Shown here in pieces: positions 17,342 to 49,927 of a stretch of DNA of 52,802 bases (position 1 is its first letter; every line of letters starts with the position of its first letter). This DNA comes from an uncultured Clostridia bacterium (GTDB taxonomy: Bacteria; Bacillota; Clostridia; Oscillospirales; UBA644). Under the pieces are notes generated by a model, which worked only from the letters and a program-made list of their open reading frames with translations, did no database searches and had not been told where the DNA came from. The stretch covers positions 1 to 52,802 of the forward strand of contig CAOJUB010000012.1 in assembly GCA_948443805.1 (NCBI GenBank), read 5' to 3'. The position numbers were made by a program, and so were the translations under genes.

Positions 17342-17407
17342 ACAAAAAAACAGGCGACTGTGCAAAAACAAGACGGCCGCACTATACAGAAGCAGAAGGG
17401 GATCACT

Positions 17408-17884
17408 ATGAACGATTCGGCATTCCAGATACGCAGACCCCGTAAAAAAAACATCCTCCGCATCGCCGCGTTTTCCGCAGGCGAAATAGCCGCGGCAGTT
17501 CTCTTTCATTTCTTTTATCTTCCGGCGCCGGAAACACAGAATAAAAAGCTGTTTGCAGCCGTTCTTTTCTGCGCTTTTCTGATCTTTTCTCTTTTCGCAA
17601 CCGCTTTTATTGCCGACGGATTCCGGAATCTTTTCGGAAAAGCGGCGGTCATCATCACCGCAGCGGAGCTTTGGATCAGCGGATTTCCAAAAAAAATTCC
17701 GCTTCATGCAATCGAAGCCATGGAGATTATCAACCGAAAGAAAGAATTTCTCATCCTGTCTTTCGGCGGTCAGACGGCAGAAATACCGGACGGATTATGC
17801 GAACTGCCGCTATTCACGGTACGGGAAGCAATCCGGAACCGGATTGACGACCTTCCGGAAAACCAACAGAAAAATTCAGCCTGA
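17408..17884 (+). CDS. Small membrane protein with two transmembrane segments
   Basis: 158 residues, function not recognised. A basic N-terminus (RRPRKKN) is followed by two hydrophobic segments (about residues 17-37 and 45-70), then a soluble C-terminal half with a pattern like a membrane-associated PH-like (YdbT or DUF-type) beta domain: LWISGFPKKIPLHAIEAMEI. The ATG at 17408 has AAGGGG upstream. It lies between trpS and addA in the long gene run, in the place where addB often precedes addA, but it has no similarity to AddB. Confidence 0.7.
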   Translation: MNDSAFQIRRPRKKNILRIAAFSAGEIAAAVLFHFFYLPAPETQNKKLFAAVLFCAFLIFSLFATAFIADGFRNLFGKAAVIITAAELWISGFPKKIPLHAIEAMEIINRKKEFLILSFGGQTAEIPDGLCELPLFTVREAIRNRIDDLPENQQKNSA

Positions 17885-17914
17885 TAAAAACAACCACAAT
17901 CGGAGGAAAACGCG

Positions 17915-20900
17915 ATGGCGGAAACCAAATGGACCGAACAACAGCGCCGGGCAATCGAATCCCGAAACAACGGTATTTTGGTCAACGCGGCGGCGGGATC
18001 CGGAAAGACTGCGGTTCTCAGCCGCAGAGTCGCGGCGCTGATCGAAGAAGGAAAAAGCATCGAACGGTTGCTGATCGTCACCTTTACGCGCGCGGCGGCG
18101 GCCGAAATGCGTCAGCGGATCGAATCCGTGCTTTCCGAGCGGTATGAACAAACCGGAGACCGGCGGCTGCTGGAGCAAAAACTGCTTGCCGACACAGCAA
18201 AAATCTGTACCATCGACAGTTTTTTCAACAGTCTCCTGAAAGAAAATTTCCAAAGAGCAGATATCCCGCCCGATTTTACGACGCTTGACGCGGCGGAAGA
18301 AGACGCGATCACCGCCGAATGCCTGGAAGAACTGATCGAAGAACAATACGAATCCTTTCTGCCGGAATTCCGGACAGCCGTTTCTTTTTTCGGCGGAGAA
18401 GGAAACGACGACGCGCTGAAAACCGCACTCAAAAACCTGTATGCTTTTCTCTCTTCTCTGCCTGCGCCGGAAAAATGGAGCAAAAAACAGGAACAGCAAG
18501 CGGCAGACCCGCTATTTTGGAAAGAGGAAGCCTGCGCTTACGCAGAAGAAGTTCTCGGGGAAATCAATTCGGTCTACCGAAAGCTTCTGGCTTCCGGCCA
18601 GCTGCCAGCAAAAAAACTTCCGCTGGTGGAAAGAGAAGCCGCGTTTTTAAAAAACACTGTATTGCTGGCGCAAAAAAAAGACTGGGACGGCCTATCCGCC
18701 GAAGTGAATCATTTTTCTTTCGACCGCCTAAGCAAGGTCGCTGAACCTGCCGAGGAATGGATCACCTTCAAAGCCTACCGCAATCTGCTCAAAGAATTTC
18801 TGAAAAAAGAAACCAATTCGTTCGGAGAGGCCTTTCTGATTTCGGAAAAAGAAATCGAAGCCGAAGCCAAAGAAACGGCAAAAGGCGTAAGAGCGCTTGT
18901 TTCGCTGACCCAGAAGCTCGCCGAAAAAATCACGGCGGAATACCGGAAAAGAAACCGCTATTCCTTTAATGAAATTGCCCGCATGGCAAAAAATCTACTG
19001 ATAGAGGATTTTGATCCCAAAACCGGAGATTATCTCCCATCCTCGCTCGGCCGGGAGATTTCGGAAAATTTTGACGAGGTTCTCATCGACGAATATCAAG
19101 ACGTCAACGACTTGCAGGATCTATTGTTCCGGGTCATTGGAAAAAACGGCGCCAACCTCTTTGTAGTCGGAGATGTAAAACAAAGCATTTACGGTTTCCG
19201 CCTGTCAAACCCGAAAAACTTTATCCGCAAAAAAAAGGAACTCCATGAAATCGACCTGAACCGGAATTTCAGAAGCCGCCCCGGAATTCTGGCCTTTTCA
19301 AATTATATTTTTTCTCATCTTTTCAACCCTACGGTGACGGAAATCGTTTATGACGAAAGCGAAAAACTGATCAGCGGCCTTCCGGGAGAAAAAAAACCGG
19401 AAGAAGTGGAAATTCATCTGCTTGAACAGGCCGATACAGAAAAACAGGCGCTTTTCTGTGCGGAAAAAATCAAAAAAATGATTGCCGAAGGATACCGGAT
19501 CACCGACAAAGAAACCAAGGAAGAACGGCCGGTTACCCTCTCCGATTTCGCCATCCTTTTACGGGCACGGAAACCGACTGAAACTTTCATGGATGTTTTT
19601 GCAGAAAAAGGGATTCCCCTCGTTTCTCCGGAAAAACCGAATTTCTGGAAAATGCCGGAAGTTCAGACAGTTCTTGCCATGCTGCGGATTATCAATAACC
19701 CCTACGATGATTCTGCGGTTTTCAGCGTGATTTTTTCTGAAATGTTCGCCTTTACCGCCGATGAAATCGCCCTGCTCAGGCAAGGAGAAAACGCAAAAGA
19801 GACGCCGCTCTTCGAACAGATCGAAGAAAAATCCGACCGCGACGCAAAATGCGCCGATTTTACGAGACTGCTGCGTCATTTGGGAATCATGGCCCGGAAT
19901 CTTCCGGTCTATAAACTGATCTGGCAGATTTTGATCCGAACCGAATATCTCGACAAAGTATCGTTTCTGCCGATGGGAGAAAACAAAAGGGAAAACCTTC
20001 TTTCCCTCTACGCTTTCGCCCGTGCCCACCCGGCTGCCGATACCCTGCTGAAATTTCTGAAACTGGCCAAACTATCCTCGGAATCCGCCAAAGATTCCGA
20101 GAAAAAAGAAATGACCGGACAAGCTGTTCGGATTATGACAATGCACGCTTCAAAGGGATTAGAATTTCCGGTTTGCCTGCTGCCGCTTCTGGAAAAAGCC
20201 TCGGTAAGCGACAGCGATCCGGTTGTCATCAGTGAAAAATTCGGCCCTGGTCTGCGGCTTCGGGATGAAGCGATGACCTATCAGGTGAACACCCTGCAAA
20301 GAAAACTGATCGAAGCCGAAACAAAAAAGAAAAACGCCGCTGAAGAACTGCGTCTTCTCTATGTGGCGCTGACCCGCCCCCGCGACCGGCTGATTCTGGT
20401 TGCGTCTCCCACGCAAACACTGCTGAAGACGCTGGAAGAAAAAGGAATGCTCTATACCGAAAACGAAAGAAAAAGTGCGTTGGCTCTTTCCCGAGACAAC
20501 AGCCTGCTTTCGTTTCTTCTTCCGGTTATCGCACGGCATACCTGCGCCGGAGAAATCGCCTCCGACTGCGGCCGGCCGTTTGTATCGGACGCGGTTTTTT
20601 CGGTGTTCTGTCAGAAGGAGGAAGACGATTCGAACGATACTGCTGCTCAAAAGCCCTCTGAAATCCCGTTCCGGCTGACCGAAAAAGAGATCAGAGAACG
20701 CTTTGGCTTTACCTATCCGAGCCCGCTAACCGGCATTCCCGCAAAAGTTTCGGTTACGGAACTTTCAAAAGGCTATGTTCCGGATCCCGATAGTGTGCTT
20801 CTGATCCCGCAGGAGGGAACAAGAAAGCCCAATTTCATGCAGGAAAGAAAACTTTCCGGCGCGGAAAAGGGGACGGCAATTCATACGTTTCTGCGTTTCG

Positions 20901-21361
20901 CCGATTTTTCAAAGAATTACGAAGAGGAAATCACCCGCCTTCAGACCGATGATTTTCTTTCGGAAGAACAGGCCGAGGCGCTCAGCCGTTCTCAACTTGC
21001 CGCCTTTTTCCAGGGAGAAGTCCCCAAAATGATCGCGGCTTCAAAAAAAACACTGCGGGAAGAAGGTTTTGTTGTTCGGATTCCCGCATCGTTTTATCCC
21101 TCCGCCCCGAAAAATGCCGCCGGTGAAATCCTGATGCAGGGCGCTATAGACCTGCTCTGCTTTACGGAGGAGGGACTCGTGATCGTGGATTATAAAACCG
21201 ACCGGCTGCCGGAAGAAAAACTACTGCGAAAATACCAGAAACAAATTGAACTCTACTGCTATGCTGCGGAAAAAATGTACGGGAAAAAAGTAAGCAACGC
21301 ATTTTTATGGTCTTTCACTTCCGGAAAACTGATTCCGGTCAAAAAAAAGAACGATTCCTGA
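17915..21361 (+). CDS. addA: AddA, helicase-nuclease subunit
   Basis: UvrD-type 3'-5' helicase fused to a C-terminal RecB-family nuclease; processes double-strand breaks to Chi-regulated 3' tails for RecA. 1148 residues. In order: TEQQRRAI (Q motif), NAAAGSGKTAVL (Walker A, near residue 25), FTRAAAAEMRQRI, VLIDEYQDVNDLQD (Walker B), GDVKQSIYGFR, TMHASKGLEFPVC, YVALTRPRDRL, then the nuclease motifs GAIDLL, VIVDYKTDR and KQIELYCYA. All motifs appear intact. GGAGG lies upstream. No addB is adjacent, which is unusual because addB and addA are normally neighbours. Confidence 0.95.
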   Translation: MAETKWTEQQRRAIESRNNGILVNAAAGSGKTAVLSRRVAALIEEGKSIERLLIVTFTRAAAAEMRQRIESVLSERYEQTGDRRLLEQKLLADTAKICTIDSFFNSLLKENFQRADIPPDFTTLDAAEEDAITAECLEELIEEQYESFLPEFRTAVSFFGGEGNDDALKTALKNLYAFLSSLPAPEKWSKKQEQQAADPLFWKEEACAYAEEVLGEINSVYRKLLASGQLPAKKLPLVEREAAFLKNTVLLAQKKDWDGLSAEVNHFSFDRLSKVAEPAEEWITFKAYRNLLKEFLKKETNSFGEAFLISEKEIEAEAKETAKGVRALVSLTQKLAEKITAEYRKRNRYSFNEIARMAKNLLIEDFDPKTGDYLPSSLGREISENFDEVLIDEYQDVNDLQDLLFRVIGKNGANLFVVGDVKQSIYGFRLSNPKNFIRKKKELHEIDLNRNFRSRPGILAFSNYIFSHLFNPTVTEIVYDESEKLISGLPGEKKPEEVEIHLLEQADTEKQALFCAEKIKKMIAEGYRITDKETKEERPVTLSDFAILLRARKPTETFMDVFAEKGIPLVSPEKPNFWKMPEVQTVLAMLRIINNPYDDSAVFSVIFSEMFAFTADEIALLRQGENAKETPLFEQIEEKSDRDAKCADFTRLLRHLGIMARNLPVYKLIWQILIRTEYLDKVSFLPMGENKRENLLSLYAFARAHPAADTLLKFLKLAKLSSESAKDSEKKEMTGQAVRIMTMHASKGLEFPVCLLPLLEKASVSDSDPVVISEKFGPGLRLRDEAMTYQVNTLQRKLIEAETKKKNAAEELRLLYVALTRPRDRLILVASPTQTLLKTLEEKGMLYTENERKSALALSRDNSLLSFLLPVIARHTCAGEIASDCGRPFVSDAVFSVFCQKEEDDSNDTAAQKPSEIPFRLTEKEIRERFGFTYPSPLTGIPAKVSVTELSKGYVPDPDSVLLIPQEGTRKPNFMQERKLSGAEKGTAIHTFLRFADFSKNYEEEITRLQTDDFLSEEQAEALSRSQLAAFFQGEVPKMIAASKKTLREEGFVVRIPASFYPSAPKNAAGEILMQGAIDLLCFTEEGLVIVDYKTDRLPEEKLLRKYQKQIELYCYAAEKMYGKKVSNAFLWSFTSGKLIPVKKKNDS

Positions 21362-21411: not shown

Positions 21412-22971
21412 ATGAAAATTCTATCCTGTGTTTTTGAAATCGAACCGGCGTCGCCTTTGAAAAACGCCGAGAAAATGATTGCTATATGCAAAGAAAAAGA
21501 CGCGGAACTCTGCCTGTTTCCCGCCTATGCTCTGACCGGCATATCCTGCGGCAATCTGCTTTCCTACAAACCGTTTATTGCCCAGTTGGACGAAGCGGTC
21601 GACCGGCTCTGCGCTTATACGGAAGAAAGCGGAAAAGTGATTGTAACCGCAACCCAGCGGCACGGAAATATCGTGATTTATGATGGGGATATCAATAACA
21701 AGGGCACCTTCACCTATCAGGGGAAAACCATTGTTGTTTCAAAAAACGCGGATGAAAAAGCGGATATCGTGCTGATTCCGACGGCAATGCCGGGCTACCC
21801 CTGCATCAAAAACGACCTGAGCGAATTCTGCGCCGCCGCTTCCAAGAAGCACGGCTGTTGTGTTGCCGTAGCCAACTGCGGTTACGGCGAGAGCTCCGCA
21901 GACAATGTTTTCAAAGGCGTTGCGGGAATTTTCAGAAACGGCGTGATTACCTCCTTTTTCGCGCAGGACAAGCCGGAAACCATCATGGCGCTTGCCGATG
22001 ATGAAAAAGGCGAAGGAATTATTTATGCGCGACCCAAACGCCCGGCGGATAAAATTCCGTATTACGGAAACAACACGCCCGCCCTATATCTTGACGAACT
22101 GCTGCTTCTGCAGAAGCAGGCGCTGTATACCCGAATGAAAAACTGCGGCCTGCAAAAAGTAGCGGTCAATGTTTCCGGGGGCGCCGATTCAACGCTGGCA
22201 CTGATTGTTGCCGCCGAAACCGTAAAAATGATGGAACTTCCGCCGGAACATGTCATCGGCCTGTCCCTTCCCTGTTTCGGAACTTCCCAGAGAACCAATA
22301 CCAATGCAAACAGCCTGATGGAAGCGCTCGGGGTTGCTAAAAAAGAAATCGATATTCAGGAGGCGGTTGCCCTTCACCTGAAACAGATTGGGCATTCCGG
22401 AGAAGAAGACGTCACCTATGAAAACGCACAGGCCAGAGAACGCACACAGATACTTTTAGATGTCTGCAATCAGGAGCATGCGCTCGCACTCGGAACCGGC
22501 GACCTCTCGGAAGCGGCGCTTGGGTTCTGCACCTTCGGCGGCGACACCCTCTGCCATTACAATGTCAACGCAACCATACCGAAAACGCTGGTAAAAGCCG
22601 CAATTCTCAACTATGCGGAAAAGCAGGAAAACGATGCGCTGAAAAAGGTACTGACCGATATTGTCGATACGCCGATCAGCCCGGAACTGAAAAAAGACCA
22701 GAAAACCGAAGATATCGTCGGCCCCTATATCCTGACCGACTTTATCCTTTACTATTTTGCAAAACATCATTTCGGTCCGGAAGATATCCGGAACTATATG
22801 CTCGCAACCTTTGACGAATATACCGATGAGGAAATCGACCGGTCGATTCAGACCTTTTTCACCCGGTTCAAAAACAACCAGTTTAAACGTTCCTCCGCCT
22901 GCGAGGGCGCCAACCTTCTTGGTTTGACGCTCCCCTATTTCCCGGCCGATGCCGTACCGGATTTTCTCTGA
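21412..22971 (+). CDS. nadE: NAD(+) synthetase with a degenerate nitrilase-like N-domain
   Basis: Makes NAD from deamido-NAD and ATP. The C-terminal synthetase domain is intact: PP-loop VSGGADST at about 254-261, ALGTGDLSEAALGFCTFGGD, and HYNVNATIPKTLVK. The N-terminal 230 residues align in plan with the nitrilase-type glutaminase of long NadE proteins, but the catalytic Glu of FPELSLTG is Ala here (FPAYALTG, A38), the segment holding the catalytic Lys is missing, and the Cys segment (ICEDLW-type) reads VVSKN. The protein is 519 residues instead of about 640. I infer it may use free ammonia. Initiation at the ATG at 21412; the longer frame overlaps addA. Confidence 0.92.
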   Translation: MKILSCVFEIEPASPLKNAEKMIAICKEKDAELCLFPAYALTGISCGNLLSYKPFIAQLDEAVDRLCAYTEESGKVIVTATQRHGNIVIYDGDINNKGTFTYQGKTIVVSKNADEKADIVLIPTAMPGYPCIKNDLSEFCAAASKKHGCCVAVANCGYGESSADNVFKGVAGIFRNGVITSFFAQDKPETIMALADDEKGEGIIYARPKRPADKIPYYGNNTPALYLDELLLLQKQALYTRMKNCGLQKVAVNVSGGADSTLALIVAAETVKMMELPPEHVIGLSLPCFGTSQRTNTNANSLMEALGVAKKEIDIQEAVALHLKQIGHSGEEDVTYENAQARERTQILLDVCNQEHALALGTGDLSEAALGFCTFGGDTLCHYNVNATIPKTLVKAAILNYAEKQENDALKKVLTDIVDTPISPELKKDQKTEDIVGPYILTDFILYYFAKHHFGPEDIRNYMLATFDEYTDEEIDRSIQTFFTRFKNNQFKRSSACEGANLLGLTLPYFPADAVPDFL

Positions 22972-23033
22972 TCCCCCCGACACGAATTTTTCGATTATAG
23001 TAAGCCGCAGAACGCGGCGGAATGGAGATTGAA

Positions 23034-25232
23034 ATGCGTCTTTGCGGAAATGTGACGGCCATGATTTATCAAAACGCCGACACCGGTTATACCGTTCTGA
23101 AAATAGACTGTGACGACGAAGAGGAAGAACTCTGCGCCGTTGGCATTATGCCGCTTGTCACCGAAGGGGAAACCGTAGAACTGGAAGGGGATTTCATGAT
23201 CCATAAAACCTACGGCCGCCAATTCGTTATTTCCTCCTTTAGCGGAAAACTGCCGGAAAAAGAAACGGCGATTTTCCATTACCTGAGCTCCGGAATCATC
23301 CGCGGCGTCGGGCCGAAAATCGCCCGGATGATTTTAGACCGGTTCGGCCCCGATTCCCTGTATATCATGGAAAATGAACCGGAACGGCTTACCGAAATCC
23401 GCGGAATTTCACCCGAAAAAGCCAAAAAAATGCAGGAAAGCCTGAAAGAAACGCAGGGAATCAAGGAAATCCTGATGTTTTTACAACAATATTCCATCAC
23501 GTCTTCCCTTGCGTTTAAAATTTATAAACACTGGGGCATGCGCTCCTGCGATATTATCCGGAAAAATCCGTACCGGCTCTGTGAAATTGCAGGCATCTCT
23601 TTTGAAAAAGCCGATGATATCGCTTCGCAGATGGAACTCTCTCCGGGCAGCACCGAGCGGATACAAGCCGGTATGCTTTATATTTTAAACCATAACATGA
23701 ACAACGGAGGCCATACCTTTCTGCCGAAAGAAAAACTTTTTTCGGTCTGCCGCAGCATGCTTGATCCCGAAGAAAGCGCATTGCAAAGCGCTTACGACAC
23801 GCTGATTGAAAACAGAAGCCTGGTCTACCGTCCGAAAATCAGCAATACCGACGGCGTTTATCTGCGCTGGGTTTACGAGTGCGAAGAAAATATCGCCAGA
23901 AGAATCTGCCTTTCGGCGATGATGAAACGGAACTATCCCGGCAATTTCGAAAAAGACATTGCGCAAATCGAAAAGGATCTCGGCCTGCATTTCGCCGAAA
24001 ATCAGAAAGAAGCCATCCGGGAAGCGTACCTTAATCATTTCATGGTGCTTACCGGAGGCCCGGGAACGGGAAAAACAACAACGCTCAACGGGATCATCCG
24101 CCTTTTTGAACAAAACGGAATCTCCTTTGCCATTGCCGCCCCGACAGGCCGCGCGGCAAAACGGGTCACCGAACTTTCCGGCAAAGAAGCGAAAACCATT
24201 CACCGGCTGCTGGAATATTCCGCAGAAGGAGACGAATGGGTCTTTGTCCGCTGCGCTGCCAATCCGCTTAAGTGCGATGCCGTAATTGTAGACGAAGCTT
24301 CGATGGTCGATCCTTCGCTTTTTGACCGGCTGCTCAACGCACTGCCGGCAACCTCTTCGGTTCTTCTGGTCGGGGATGCAAACCAATTGCCATCGGTCGG
24401 CGCAGGAAGCCTTCTCAAAGACATTATCGCCAGTTCCGCAGCAAAGACTGTGGAGCTCAACGAAATTTTCCGTCAAGCGAAAGAAAGCCTGATTATTACC
24501 AACGCACACCGGATTATCCGGGGCGAAATGCCGGAACTTGCCGACCGGAAAAGGGACTTCTTTTTTCTTCCCGCCTACTCTCCCGACGCCGTCTGCCGAA
24601 CGGTAGGAGAATTGCTGGAAAAACGGCTGCCGAAGGCGTACGGCTATGACCCGAAAACGGAAATCCAGGTGCTTTGCCCTTCCAGAAAAGGAATGACCGG
24701 AAGCGGAAACCTGAATGTCGGCCTGCAGAGGCTGCTGAACCCGGAAACCGAAAACAAACGGCAGCTGGAATACCGCGGCGGCGTTTTCCGGGAGGGAGAC
24801 AAGGTCATGCAGATAAAAAACAATTACGATGTAGAATATGAAGGCGCAGACGGAAAACCGGAAAAGGGGATTTTCAACGGAGATATCGGAATCATCGAAC
24901 GGGTATATGAAAAAGAGCTGTGTCTGGCCGTTCTTTTCGACGACAAACGGGTTATTTATCCCCGGGAAATGCTTGACGAACTGGAGCCGGCCTATGCCGT
25001 TACCGTTCATAAAAGCCAGGGAAGCGAATGGCCGGCGGTCATTCTTCCGTTATTTGACTGCCCCGATATGCTGTCCACAAGAAATCTTCTTTACACGGCG
25101 GTTACCCGCGCGCGGAAACAGCTGATTCTTGTAGGAAGCGAGAAAAAAATAGCACAGATGGTACAGAATAATATCTCCAATAAACGATACAGCGGGCTGA
25201 AATTTCTTCTGAAAGAGTATACCGGGCAATGA
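23034..25232 (+). CDS. recD2: RecD2 5'-3' DNA helicase
   Basis: SF1B helicase of the RecD2/TraA type, active without RecBC, linked to replication-fork repair. 732 residues: an N-terminal OB-like region (GNVTAMIYQNADTGYTVLKI), helix-hairpin-helix repeats (GVGPKIARMI, then IRGISPEKAKK), then Walker A TGGPGTGKTTTL, APTGRAAKRVTEL, Walker B VIVDEASMVD, GDANQLPSVGAG, and VHKSQGSEWPAV. The ATG at 23034 has GGAG 6 nt upstream; an ATG at 23022 is an alternative that adds four residues. It overlaps comF by 4 nt, so the two are coupled. Confidence 0.95.
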   Translation: MRLCGNVTAMIYQNADTGYTVLKIDCDDEEEELCAVGIMPLVTEGETVELEGDFMIHKTYGRQFVISSFSGKLPEKETAIFHYLSSGIIRGVGPKIARMILDRFGPDSLYIMENEPERLTEIRGISPEKAKKMQESLKETQGIKEILMFLQQYSITSSLAFKIYKHWGMRSCDIIRKNPYRLCEIAGISFEKADDIASQMELSPGSTERIQAGMLYILNHNMNNGGHTFLPKEKLFSVCRSMLDPEESALQSAYDTLIENRSLVYRPKISNTDGVYLRWVYECEENIARRICLSAMMKRNYPGNFEKDIAQIEKDLGLHFAENQKEAIREAYLNHFMVLTGGPGTGKTTTLNGIIRLFEQNGISFAIAAPTGRAAKRVTELSGKEAKTIHRLLEYSAEGDEWVFVRCAANPLKCDAVIVDEASMVDPSLFDRLLNALPATSSVLLVGDANQLPSVGAGSLLKDIIASSAAKTVELNEIFRQAKESLIITNAHRIIRGEMPELADRKRDFFFLPAYSPDAVCRTVGELLEKRLPKAYGYDPKTEIQVLCPSRKGMTGSGNLNVGLQRLLNPETENKRQLEYRGGVFREGDKVMQIKNNYDVEYEGADGKPEKGIFNGDIGIIERVYEKELCLAVLFDDKRVIYPREMLDELEPAYAVTVHKSQGSEWPAVILPLFDCPDMLSTRNLLYTAVTRARKQLILVGSEKKIAQMVQNNISNKRYSGLKFLLKEYTGQ

Positions 25233-39076: not shown

Positions 39077-39937
39077 CTACCGGCGTTCCGTTTCCGCCTT
39101 CTCTGCCGAAACATATACCACCCCGGCGGCGCGGGGACCGATGTGCGTTCCGATCGCCGCGCCGACCTGCAGCCGGCGGTCTACCGAAATCCCGGCGTTT
39201 TTCAGCCTTGCTTCCAGTTCTTCACAGTTTTCAGCGCCGTAAGACCAGAGAGAATAAAAAGGAAACGCAGGATCTGCCGGGCATGCCTGAATCTGCCGCG
39301 TAACGCTGTGCAACGCACGCGTCATGCCGAAACACTTTTCCGCCACCGCAACTTTACCCGCCCGGTCAAGCCGCAGCAGAGGCTTGATGTTTGCAATTTT
39401 CCCCAAAGCCGCCTCAGTCTTGCTTAACCGGCCGCCCCGGTAAAGATATTCCAGTGTGTCGACAAGAAAAAAAATGGTCAGGCGGTTCCGGAGCGCTTCA
39501 AGCTCCCGGACGATTTCCTGCGCGCTCCGTTCCTGTAAACGAAGCGCACAAGCCCGGTCGGCCAAAAACCGGATTGCGCCCGATGCGGAAAGAGAATCGA
39601 CCAGATAAATTCCCTCATATCCGGAAAGTTCTTTGGCCAGAAGGGCGTTCTGATAAGTACCGCTCAGGCTGGAAGAAATCAGAATACAAATCATTTCGTC
39701 CTTTTTTTGCCGAGCATCCTCAAAAATTTCCAAAAAAGCGCTGACCGATGGCTGTGAAGTTTTCGGAAAAATCTTCCCCTGTGTCAGCATACGGTAAAAA
39801 TCATCACGAAACAAGTCTTTTCCGTCATAATAATTGGCTTCGCCGAAAGCAATTTGAAGCGAAACAAACTCAATCTGCTGTTCTTTCATTTCTGAAGGCA
39901 GATAATCCGCCCCCGTATCCACAAGAATCCGTATCAT
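39077..39937 (-). CDS. DegV family fatty acid-binding protein
   Basis: 286 residues. DegV proteins bind fatty acids and in Gram-positive bacteria deliver exogenous ones to a kinase (the FakB role). Visible: VDTGADYLPSE at the start, SSSLSGTYQNA (Ser loop), FLVDTLEYLYRGGRLSK, and GTHIGPRAAGVVYV. It follows the second MarR gene on the - strand, 69 bp away, probably under the same promoter. A second, divergent DegV gene lies at 49058. Confidence 0.92.
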   Translation of the reverse strand: MIRILVDTGADYLPSEMKEQQIEFVSLQIAFGEANYYDGKDLFRDDFYRMLTQGKIFPKTSQPSVSAFLEIFEDARQKKDEMICILISSSLSGTYQNALLAKELSGYEGIYLVDSLSASGAIRFLADRACALRLQERSAQEIVRELEALRNRLTIFFLVDTLEYLYRGGRLSKTEAALGKIANIKPLLRLDRAGKVAVAEKCFGMTRALHSVTRQIQACPADPAFPFYSLWSYGAENCEELEARLKNAGISVDRRLQVGAAIGTHIGPRAAGVVYVSAEKAETERR

Positions 39938-48593: not shown

Positions 48594-49061
48594 ATGATTT
48601 TTGACAGACTTGACAATATTGACCGCTATCTCGGGATCAGCGAAGCGTTTGACAGGGCGATTTCACTGATTAAAACCACCGATTTCACTAAAGCGTCCGA
48701 GGGAAAAACCGAGGTTTCCGATGACGTTTATTTCACCAAGGCATCCATTACCACCTCGGACATCACCGATTCATTTTTTGAAGTACATAAAAAATACGCC
48801 GATATTTTCATTCCGCTTACCGGAAGAGAAATCGTTAAAATTTCTTCGCCCGAAGGGATGAACCGGTTGGCCGAATATCAGGAAGAAGCGGATTATTACG
48901 CCGTCGGCGGAAAAACCGAACTTTCCCTTGAAAATACGCCCAAGACCTTCTGCGTCTGTTTTCCGGAGGAAGCGCATAATTCTGCGGGAAACGTGAACGG
49001 AGAAACGATTACATTTGAAAAAATCGTGGTTAAAGTCCGTATGCAGGAGGGAACCGTATGA
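48594..49061 (+). CDS. YhcH/YjgK/YiaL family protein (DUF386)
   Basis: 155 residues of a cupin-like fold. The family is linked to sugar metabolism, for example near sialic acid and beta-galactoside genes; reaction unclear. Visible: FEVHKKYADIFIPLTG with the metal His, DYYAVGG, and the C-terminal FPEEAHNSAG with a second His. An AGGTAC ribosome site is weak, and translation is possibly coupled to the upstream gene. It overlaps degV by 4 nt. Together with DUF4091 this suggests a small sugar-related unit. Confidence 0.88.
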   Translation: MIFDRLDNIDRYLGISEAFDRAISLIKTTDFTKASEGKTEVSDDVYFTKASITTSDITDSFFEVHKKYADIFIPLTGREIVKISSPEGMNRLAEYQEEADYYAVGGKTELSLENTPKTFCVCFPEEAHNSAGNVNGETITFEKIVVKVRMQEGTV

Positions 49062-49927
49062 AAAAAATAGCCGTATGCACCGACTCTAACAGCGGTTTCT
49101 CGCCGGAAGAGGCGAAAGCGGCGGGCGTCTATGTGCTTCCCATGCCCTTTTATATCAACAATGAATTGTATTTTCAGGATATCGACCTGACAATTGACGA
49201 TTTTTACCAGCGTCTCAGCGACAATGAGGATATCAAGACCTCCATGCCTCTGACCGGCGATCTTCTGGCCTTCTGGGATAAAATTCTGGAAGAATATGAA
49301 GAACTGGTCTATATTCCCATGTCCTCCGGCTTATCCTCCTCCTGCGCGGCGGCGGAAAGTTTCGCGCCGGAATACGGAGGAAGAGTCCACGTCGTGGATA
49401 ACCGCAGAATTTCCGCCAGTCTGAAACAATCGGTGTTCGACGCACTTGATCTCGCACAGCAGGGCAAAACCGGCGAAGAAATCAAAGCTGAACTGGAAGC
49501 CGCTGCTTCCGACGGGATGATCTATATCACCATGGATTCGCTGCACTATTTGAAAAAAGGCGGAAGGCTCACTCCGGCCGTCGCGGCAATCGGCACGCTG
49601 CTGAACATCAAACCGGTTCTGTTAATCGACGGCGCAAAACTCGACGTCTATAAAAAAGTACGGGGAAAAGCTGCGGCAAAAGACGTGATGATCCAGGCCG
49701 TAAAAGATACCATCGCAACCAAATTCAAAGGCCTGTCCCCGGAAAAAGATTTGCTGCTCTACGGCGTTTATTCGCAGTATAACGAAGAAGCAAAAGAATG
49801 GAACGCCCGGCTCCAGCAGGAATTTCCGGGAATCCCCTTTGCCCATGAGCCCCTTTCTCTGAGCATCGCCTGCCATATCGGCCCAGGTGCGGTAGCGGTC
49901 GTTGTTCTGAAGCGGTTCGGCCGCTGA
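49058..49927 (+). CDS. DegV family fatty acid-binding protein (second)
   Basis: 289 residues, the same family as the gene at 39077 but divergent. Visible: VCTDSNSGFSPEEA, the Ser-loop SSGLSSSCAAAESF, TMDSLHYLKKGGRLTPAV and CHIGPGAVAVVV. It overlaps the YhcH-family gene (GTATGA), so coupled translation is expected. Last gene of the dnaD operon before a strong terminator. Likely binds fatty acid. Confidence 0.93.
   Translation: MKKIAVCTDSNSGFSPEEAKAAGVYVLPMPFYINNELYFQDIDLTIDDFYQRLSDNEDIKTSMPLTGDLLAFWDKILEEYEELVYIPMSSGLSSSCAAAESFAPEYGGRVHVVDNRRISASLKQSVFDALDLAQQGKTGEEIKAELEAAASDGMIYITMDSLHYLKKGGRLTPAVAAIGTLLNIKPVLLIDGAKLDVYKKVRGKAAAKDVMIQAVKDTIATKFKGLSPEKDLLLYGVYSQYNEEAKEWNARLQQEFPGIPFAHEPLSLSIACHIGPGAVAVVVLKRFGR

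Follow-up and report, generated by a model that had tools for sequence, protein, structure and literature searches.

A fused NAD synthetase with a degenerate glutaminase domain in a family of uncultured Clostridia, probably ammonia-dependent and retaining a role for its dead domain

The window analysed here, i.e. the whole stretch of 52,802 nucleotides of contig CAOJUB010000012.1 (assembly GCA_948443805.1, an uncultured Clostridia bacterium of the order Oscillospirales), carries a gene for a two-domain NAD synthetase (NadE) of 519 amino acids, placed between two genes on the same strand. The features discussed below are as follows:

17915..21361, + strand: upstream gene, which we take from its sequence to be addA; a homologue lies upstream in loci L066, L069 and L076
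21412..22971, + strand: two-domain NadE of 519 aa whose glutaminase domain is dead by sequence (ORF 21412-22968 plus stop)
21412..22077, + strand: N-domain, residues 1-222, a shrunken nitrilase fold without the triad (from alignment and structure model)
21523..21525, + strand: codon of Ala38, which replaces the catalytic Glu (from alignment)
22078..22968, + strand: synthetase domain and C-terminal part, residues 223-519 (PF02540 at residues 237-493)
22174..22191, + strand: PP-loop SGGADS, residues 255-260 (from sequence)
22492..22512, + strand: GTGDLSE motif (residues 361-367), conserved in the window protein, altered in two doubly dead orthologues
23022..25232, + strand: downstream gene, presumably recD2 from its sequence, also downstream in L076 (genome G002)

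In L070 and L075 the neighbours are mnmG-trmB-ispF, and because no neighbour is common to all family members the conserved neighbourhood was rejected as a functional clue. An addB-sized gene is absent directly upstream of the addA-like gene (window 17360-21361), a place where L066 and L076 have ORFs of 734 and 600 aa. Elsewhere in the window, four consecutive small predicted membrane or lipoproteins of 151, 195, 160 and 168 aa (44-2099) share a GYxPxQ(I/V)TKI-like motif and look like a tandem paralogue set, and two proteins encoded on opposite strands (39077-39937 and 49058-49927) are DegV-like, to judge from their sequences.

The synthetase half of the protein matches PF02540 (NAD synthase) with 101.6 bits against a cut-off of 21 (E 4.9e-29) and keeps, together with the PP-loop, 77 of 98 synthetase positions, here defined as those with an invariance of at least 95% across 103 intact-triad proteins. 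The N-domain reaches 12 bits for CN_hydrolase (PF00795), below the cut-off of 23.2, and the score of the protein against the equivalog NF002730 is 370.9 bits, below the cut-off of 473. The genome to which the window belongs (1.81 Mb, 35 contigs, 98.85% complete) has a canonical NadE of 652 aa with a complete triad (FPEL / VPKT / EICEDLW). This gene is on another contig. The window gene is thus a second, divergent NadE there and is not obviously needed for NAD in that organism. In pairwise alignment with the canonical protein, FPEL is replaced by FPAY, with Ala38 in place of the catalytic Glu; the region of the Lys falls in a gap of about 37 columns; the Cys is missing at the EICEDLW position; and the window protein is 133 aa shorter. 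A preliminary description, made from the sequence of the locus, had named these same changes, along with a shortfall of about 120 residues and an intact PP-loop, and the alignment bears it out. Its view that the glutaminase is dead also holds as far as the absence of the Glu-Lys-Cys triad can tell. Four cysteines of the protein (C67, C131, C140 and C149) are conserved or nearly conserved.

The window protein is not a synthetase domain alone, having about 200 additional N-terminal residues that adopt a nitrilase fold in an AlphaFold2 model of the whole protein (18 sequences, pLDDT 85.7, pTM 0.87). Residues 1-199 of the model superpose on the nitrilase-superfamily amidase 5jqn (Z 21.2, 191 residues, 2.2 A), the whole model on the fused NadE 3ilv (Z 30.5, 461 residues, 2.7 A) and its synthetase fold on 2e18 (Z 29.3, 243 residues, 1.8 A). 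Against 6ofc_C the Z score is 34.5 over 483 residues with an overall rmsd of 20 A, presumably because the two domains are differently placed. Searches with Foldseek and VIA gave solely NadE and nitrilase relatives among the matches listed.

The gene product would descend from a fused glutamine-type NadE. It shares with the fused glutamine-dependent enzyme of the M. tuberculosis type (PDB 3dla, 6ofc; NF002730) the domain order, the nitrilase fold and the PP-loop synthetase, but it lacks the Glu-Lys-Cys triad and falls below the NF002730 cut-off. The single-domain ammonia-dependent NAD synthetase (type N in PMC3376133) has the same synthetase fold and the same expected reaction, from deamido-NAD, ammonia and ATP, whereas the window protein retains an entire additional nitrilase-fold domain of about 200 residues. 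A likeness in kind is offered by human carbamoyl phosphate synthetase I, an amidotransferase described in PMC4655335 as having a glutaminase-like domain inactivated by a Cys to Ser change and as taking ammonia from its surroundings; its glutaminase domain is however unrelated, with a Cys-His-Glu triad, and the window protein is not a member of that group. PMC3376133 groups all fused NadE as one glutamine-using type and is free of the words 'inactive' and 'truncated', and a literature search confined to open-licence PMC papers found no dead-glutaminase NadE described in the titles and abstract openings listed.

Among 20 genomes of the family, the short-form NadE is full-length in 18, a contig-edge fragment in one and absent from one that is 61% complete. 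All 18 full-length orthologues have the Ala at the Glu position and the same deletions in the alignment, so that an isolated odd protein, chance or an assembly error can be ruled out, and the loss is indeed common to close relatives, a point that the preliminary description had left to be checked. The idea of the N-domain as a family of free-standing proteins was rejected. In 391 genomes of the class, a search for it gave the window and two NadE fragments only; in 394 genomes of the order, its profile matched 18 members of the family with E-values no higher than 1e-99 and everything else at 3.6e-14 or worse, nearly all in frames of NadE length.

The PP-loop is kept in 16 of the 18. These PP-intact members keep 72-77 of the 98 synthetase positions, compared with 80-98 in every intact-triad protein, which indicates that the synthetase site of the family has drifted. 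In addition to the short form, G000 (the window's genome) has the canonical NadE, and G001 and G005 have a single-domain NadE; in G001 the latter (G001:C15:137348-138843) adjoins a CN_hydrolase gene, so that this genome combines the clustered two-subunit arrangement with the dead-glutaminase form. The other 13 have no other NadE-level match among the matches listed, and five of them (G007, G008, G009, G011 and G013) are at least 90% complete. A nadD gene scores above cut-off in 19 of the 20 family genomes. G007, G009, G011 and G013 (each at least 90% complete) gave no PF00795 match, and neither did G006, G014 and G017 (81-83% complete); in all seven the short form is the only NadE found among the matches listed.

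Short-form and canonical NadE coexist in G000, G002 and G003. The canonical genes of these three genomes do not form one clade (p-AU 3e-5), which suggests that they were acquired separately. Contamination as their origin was rejected, as each contig agrees in tetranucleotide composition with its own genome (mean r 0.92, 0.96 and 0.90, respectively; the G002 contig has just 4,057 bases).

The survey of the order used 100 long-NadE loci outside the family (L080-L179), the best 100 listed by similarity to the window protein; before counting we removed two extra frames, L146_2 (366 aa) and L082_2, which is partial and adjoins an assembly gap. The triad is broken in 24 of the 100, a count that is no population rate since the loci were taken in order of their similarity to the window protein. 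For the same reason it is not comparable as a frequency with the phylum control, in which two of 25 long NadE from outside the order were broken (27 fetched, two of the same order left out). In 17 of the 24 (L103, L109, L117, L145 and 13 others) the Glu is retained and the nucleophile is gone, replaced by Gly in 16, four of which come from one genus, and by Ala in one; two of the 17 have lost the Lys too. Gly at this position perhaps relieves a strained backbone. In the alignment of the careful tree, L082, L086 and L088 have Cys in the nucleophile column but lack Glu and Lys, and the count of proteins with 'no Cys' thus differs from that of proteins with the 'triad broken'.

On the synthetase-domain tree the nucleophile label changes 14 times (bootstrap range 12-15), with at least seven changes forced by well supported branches; L113 (intact) and L117 (broken) lie within one genus. 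A quick tree had 122 rows and omitted L116, and a careful tree had 90 rows, excluding both doubly dead orthologues, L079, L080, three rows with long branches and any near-duplicates. Six proteins from other families, likewise with broken triads (L082, L085, L086, L088, L116 and L153), form one group with the window's family (support 100/99), a clade that spans four families of the order, and the loss in the window's lineage is thus probably older than the family. Outside the order, long NadE with broken triads were seen in L079, L224 and L225 (G718, G836 and G452), possibly as separate losses. L082 (G328, contig C6) has a tandem pair of broken-triad NadE, one at an assembly gap, and an intact NadE also occurs in that genome. 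In 20 of 25 broken-triad genomes (the 24 of the order and G718, of another order) no second match above the TIGR00552 cut-off was found, and 17 of these 20 are at least 90% complete.

The two remaining full-length family members, from G002 and G003, appear doubly dead. Their PP-loops read GDNSES and PCRPEA, their GTGDLSE motifs GILPLSE and GWESLTS, and they keep 33 and 31 of the 98 synthetase positions compared with 72-77 in the other members; neither has a Pfam match above cut-off. Both frames are nevertheless open (473 aa in G002 and 449 aa in G003), and the N-domain and C-terminal part are retained together. The N-domains have mean identities of 46.8% and 47.7% to the other members, against 48.1% for the window, and the catalytic cores 29.8% and 29.3%, where 42 and 70 positions are gaps. 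The genes occupy the places of their relatives, G002 having the order addA-gene-recD2-comF as in the window and G003 mnmG-trmB-ispF-gene as in L070. A single shared loss of the synthetase site was rejected (p-AU 0.0005; the two are not sisters). The evidence comes from two lineages with one metagenome-assembled genome each.

Omega, estimated for seven close pairs among the PP-intact members, was 0.03-0.24 over residues 1-222 and 0.04-0.12 over the remainder. The dead N-domain is constrained, in most pairs about as strongly as the synthetase half. The preliminary description had regarded the N-domain as a passive structural remnant, and this part of it did not stand: with purifying selection of this strength, and with persistence in two lineages that have lost the synthetase site, the domain would not be a passive relic. 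We favour the reading, to which we give a probability of about 0.7 on sequence grounds, that the protein makes NAD from ammonia and that its dead glutaminase domain holds a separate, non-catalytic role. The N-domain, having lost the triad and two active-site loops, would carry out no glutamine hydrolysis, and the kept synthetase site would amidate deamido-NAD using free ammonia, given that this is the only NadE in most relatives (among the matches listed) and that an intact nadD is present in the genome. Free ammonia, which the preliminary description had already proposed, is likely the simplest donor where a nitrilase-type glutaminase is absent, as the short form is the sole NadE found in 13 of 16 genomes, four of them (at least 90% complete) lacking a nitrilase-family gene. 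The dead domain most likely has a separate function, for instance in the binding of a partner or of some small molecule, although no partner or ligand was found. A stronger form of this idea, that the domain is a pseudoenzyme with an NAD-independent function of its own and that two lineages independently let the synthetase die with the protein still under selection, is tentative and in our estimate falls somewhat short of an even chance.

Purifying selection on the N-domain would be expected as well if the protein were a plain ammonia-dependent NadE, the N-domain merely a structural or oligomerisation scaffold and both doubly dead copies on their way out. Such a scaffold would agree with the joint retention of the N-domain and C-terminal part in those copies, with the contact between a C-terminal loop and the glutaminase domain in solved fused NadE (PMC3376133), and with the canonical NadE found elsewhere in both genomes. 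We nonetheless consider it unlikely, since the scaffold of a dead site should decay too, and here the core has fallen to about 30% identity with the N-domain ordinary and the frame open; when the window gene was evolved neutrally in simulation, none of 500 runs was stop-free at a mean identity of 65% or less.

Two further explanations involve a second protein. The short form might join the canonical NadE in mixed oligomers, as a subunit or regulator of it, given that both genes are present in G000, G002 and G003 and that fused NadE of this type is octameric according to PMC6946656. This is improbable in our view, for 13 of the 16 PP-intact genomes have no other NadE among the matches listed, and a partner whose genes in the three genomes are not one clade would have to be acquired separately each time. 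Least probable of all is that glutamine is used with the help of a glutaminase supplied in trans by a second subunit, the arrangement of the two-subunit Thermus NadE. Type C and type R arrangements do exist (PMC3376133) and a nitrilase gene does adjoin the single-domain NadE of G001, but the seven sole-NadE family genomes without a PF00795 match make a trans-acting nitrilase very doubtful, and the N-domain would itself fill the place that such a subunit needs.

The preferred reading, an ammonia-dependent enzyme with a retained non-catalytic domain, bears on how these genes are annotated, since annotation by length or domain labels any two-domain NadE as glutamine-dependent. In one order of Clostridia, fused NadE whose triad is broken occur commonly and often represent the sole NadE, and hence many genomes probably have the wrong nitrogen donor assigned to their NAD synthesis. 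Having recurred, the Cys-to-Gly loss supplies natural replicates for studying the circumstances and causes of glutaminase loss, and the doubly dead copies may offer a case of a pseudoenzyme that has outlived both its activities.
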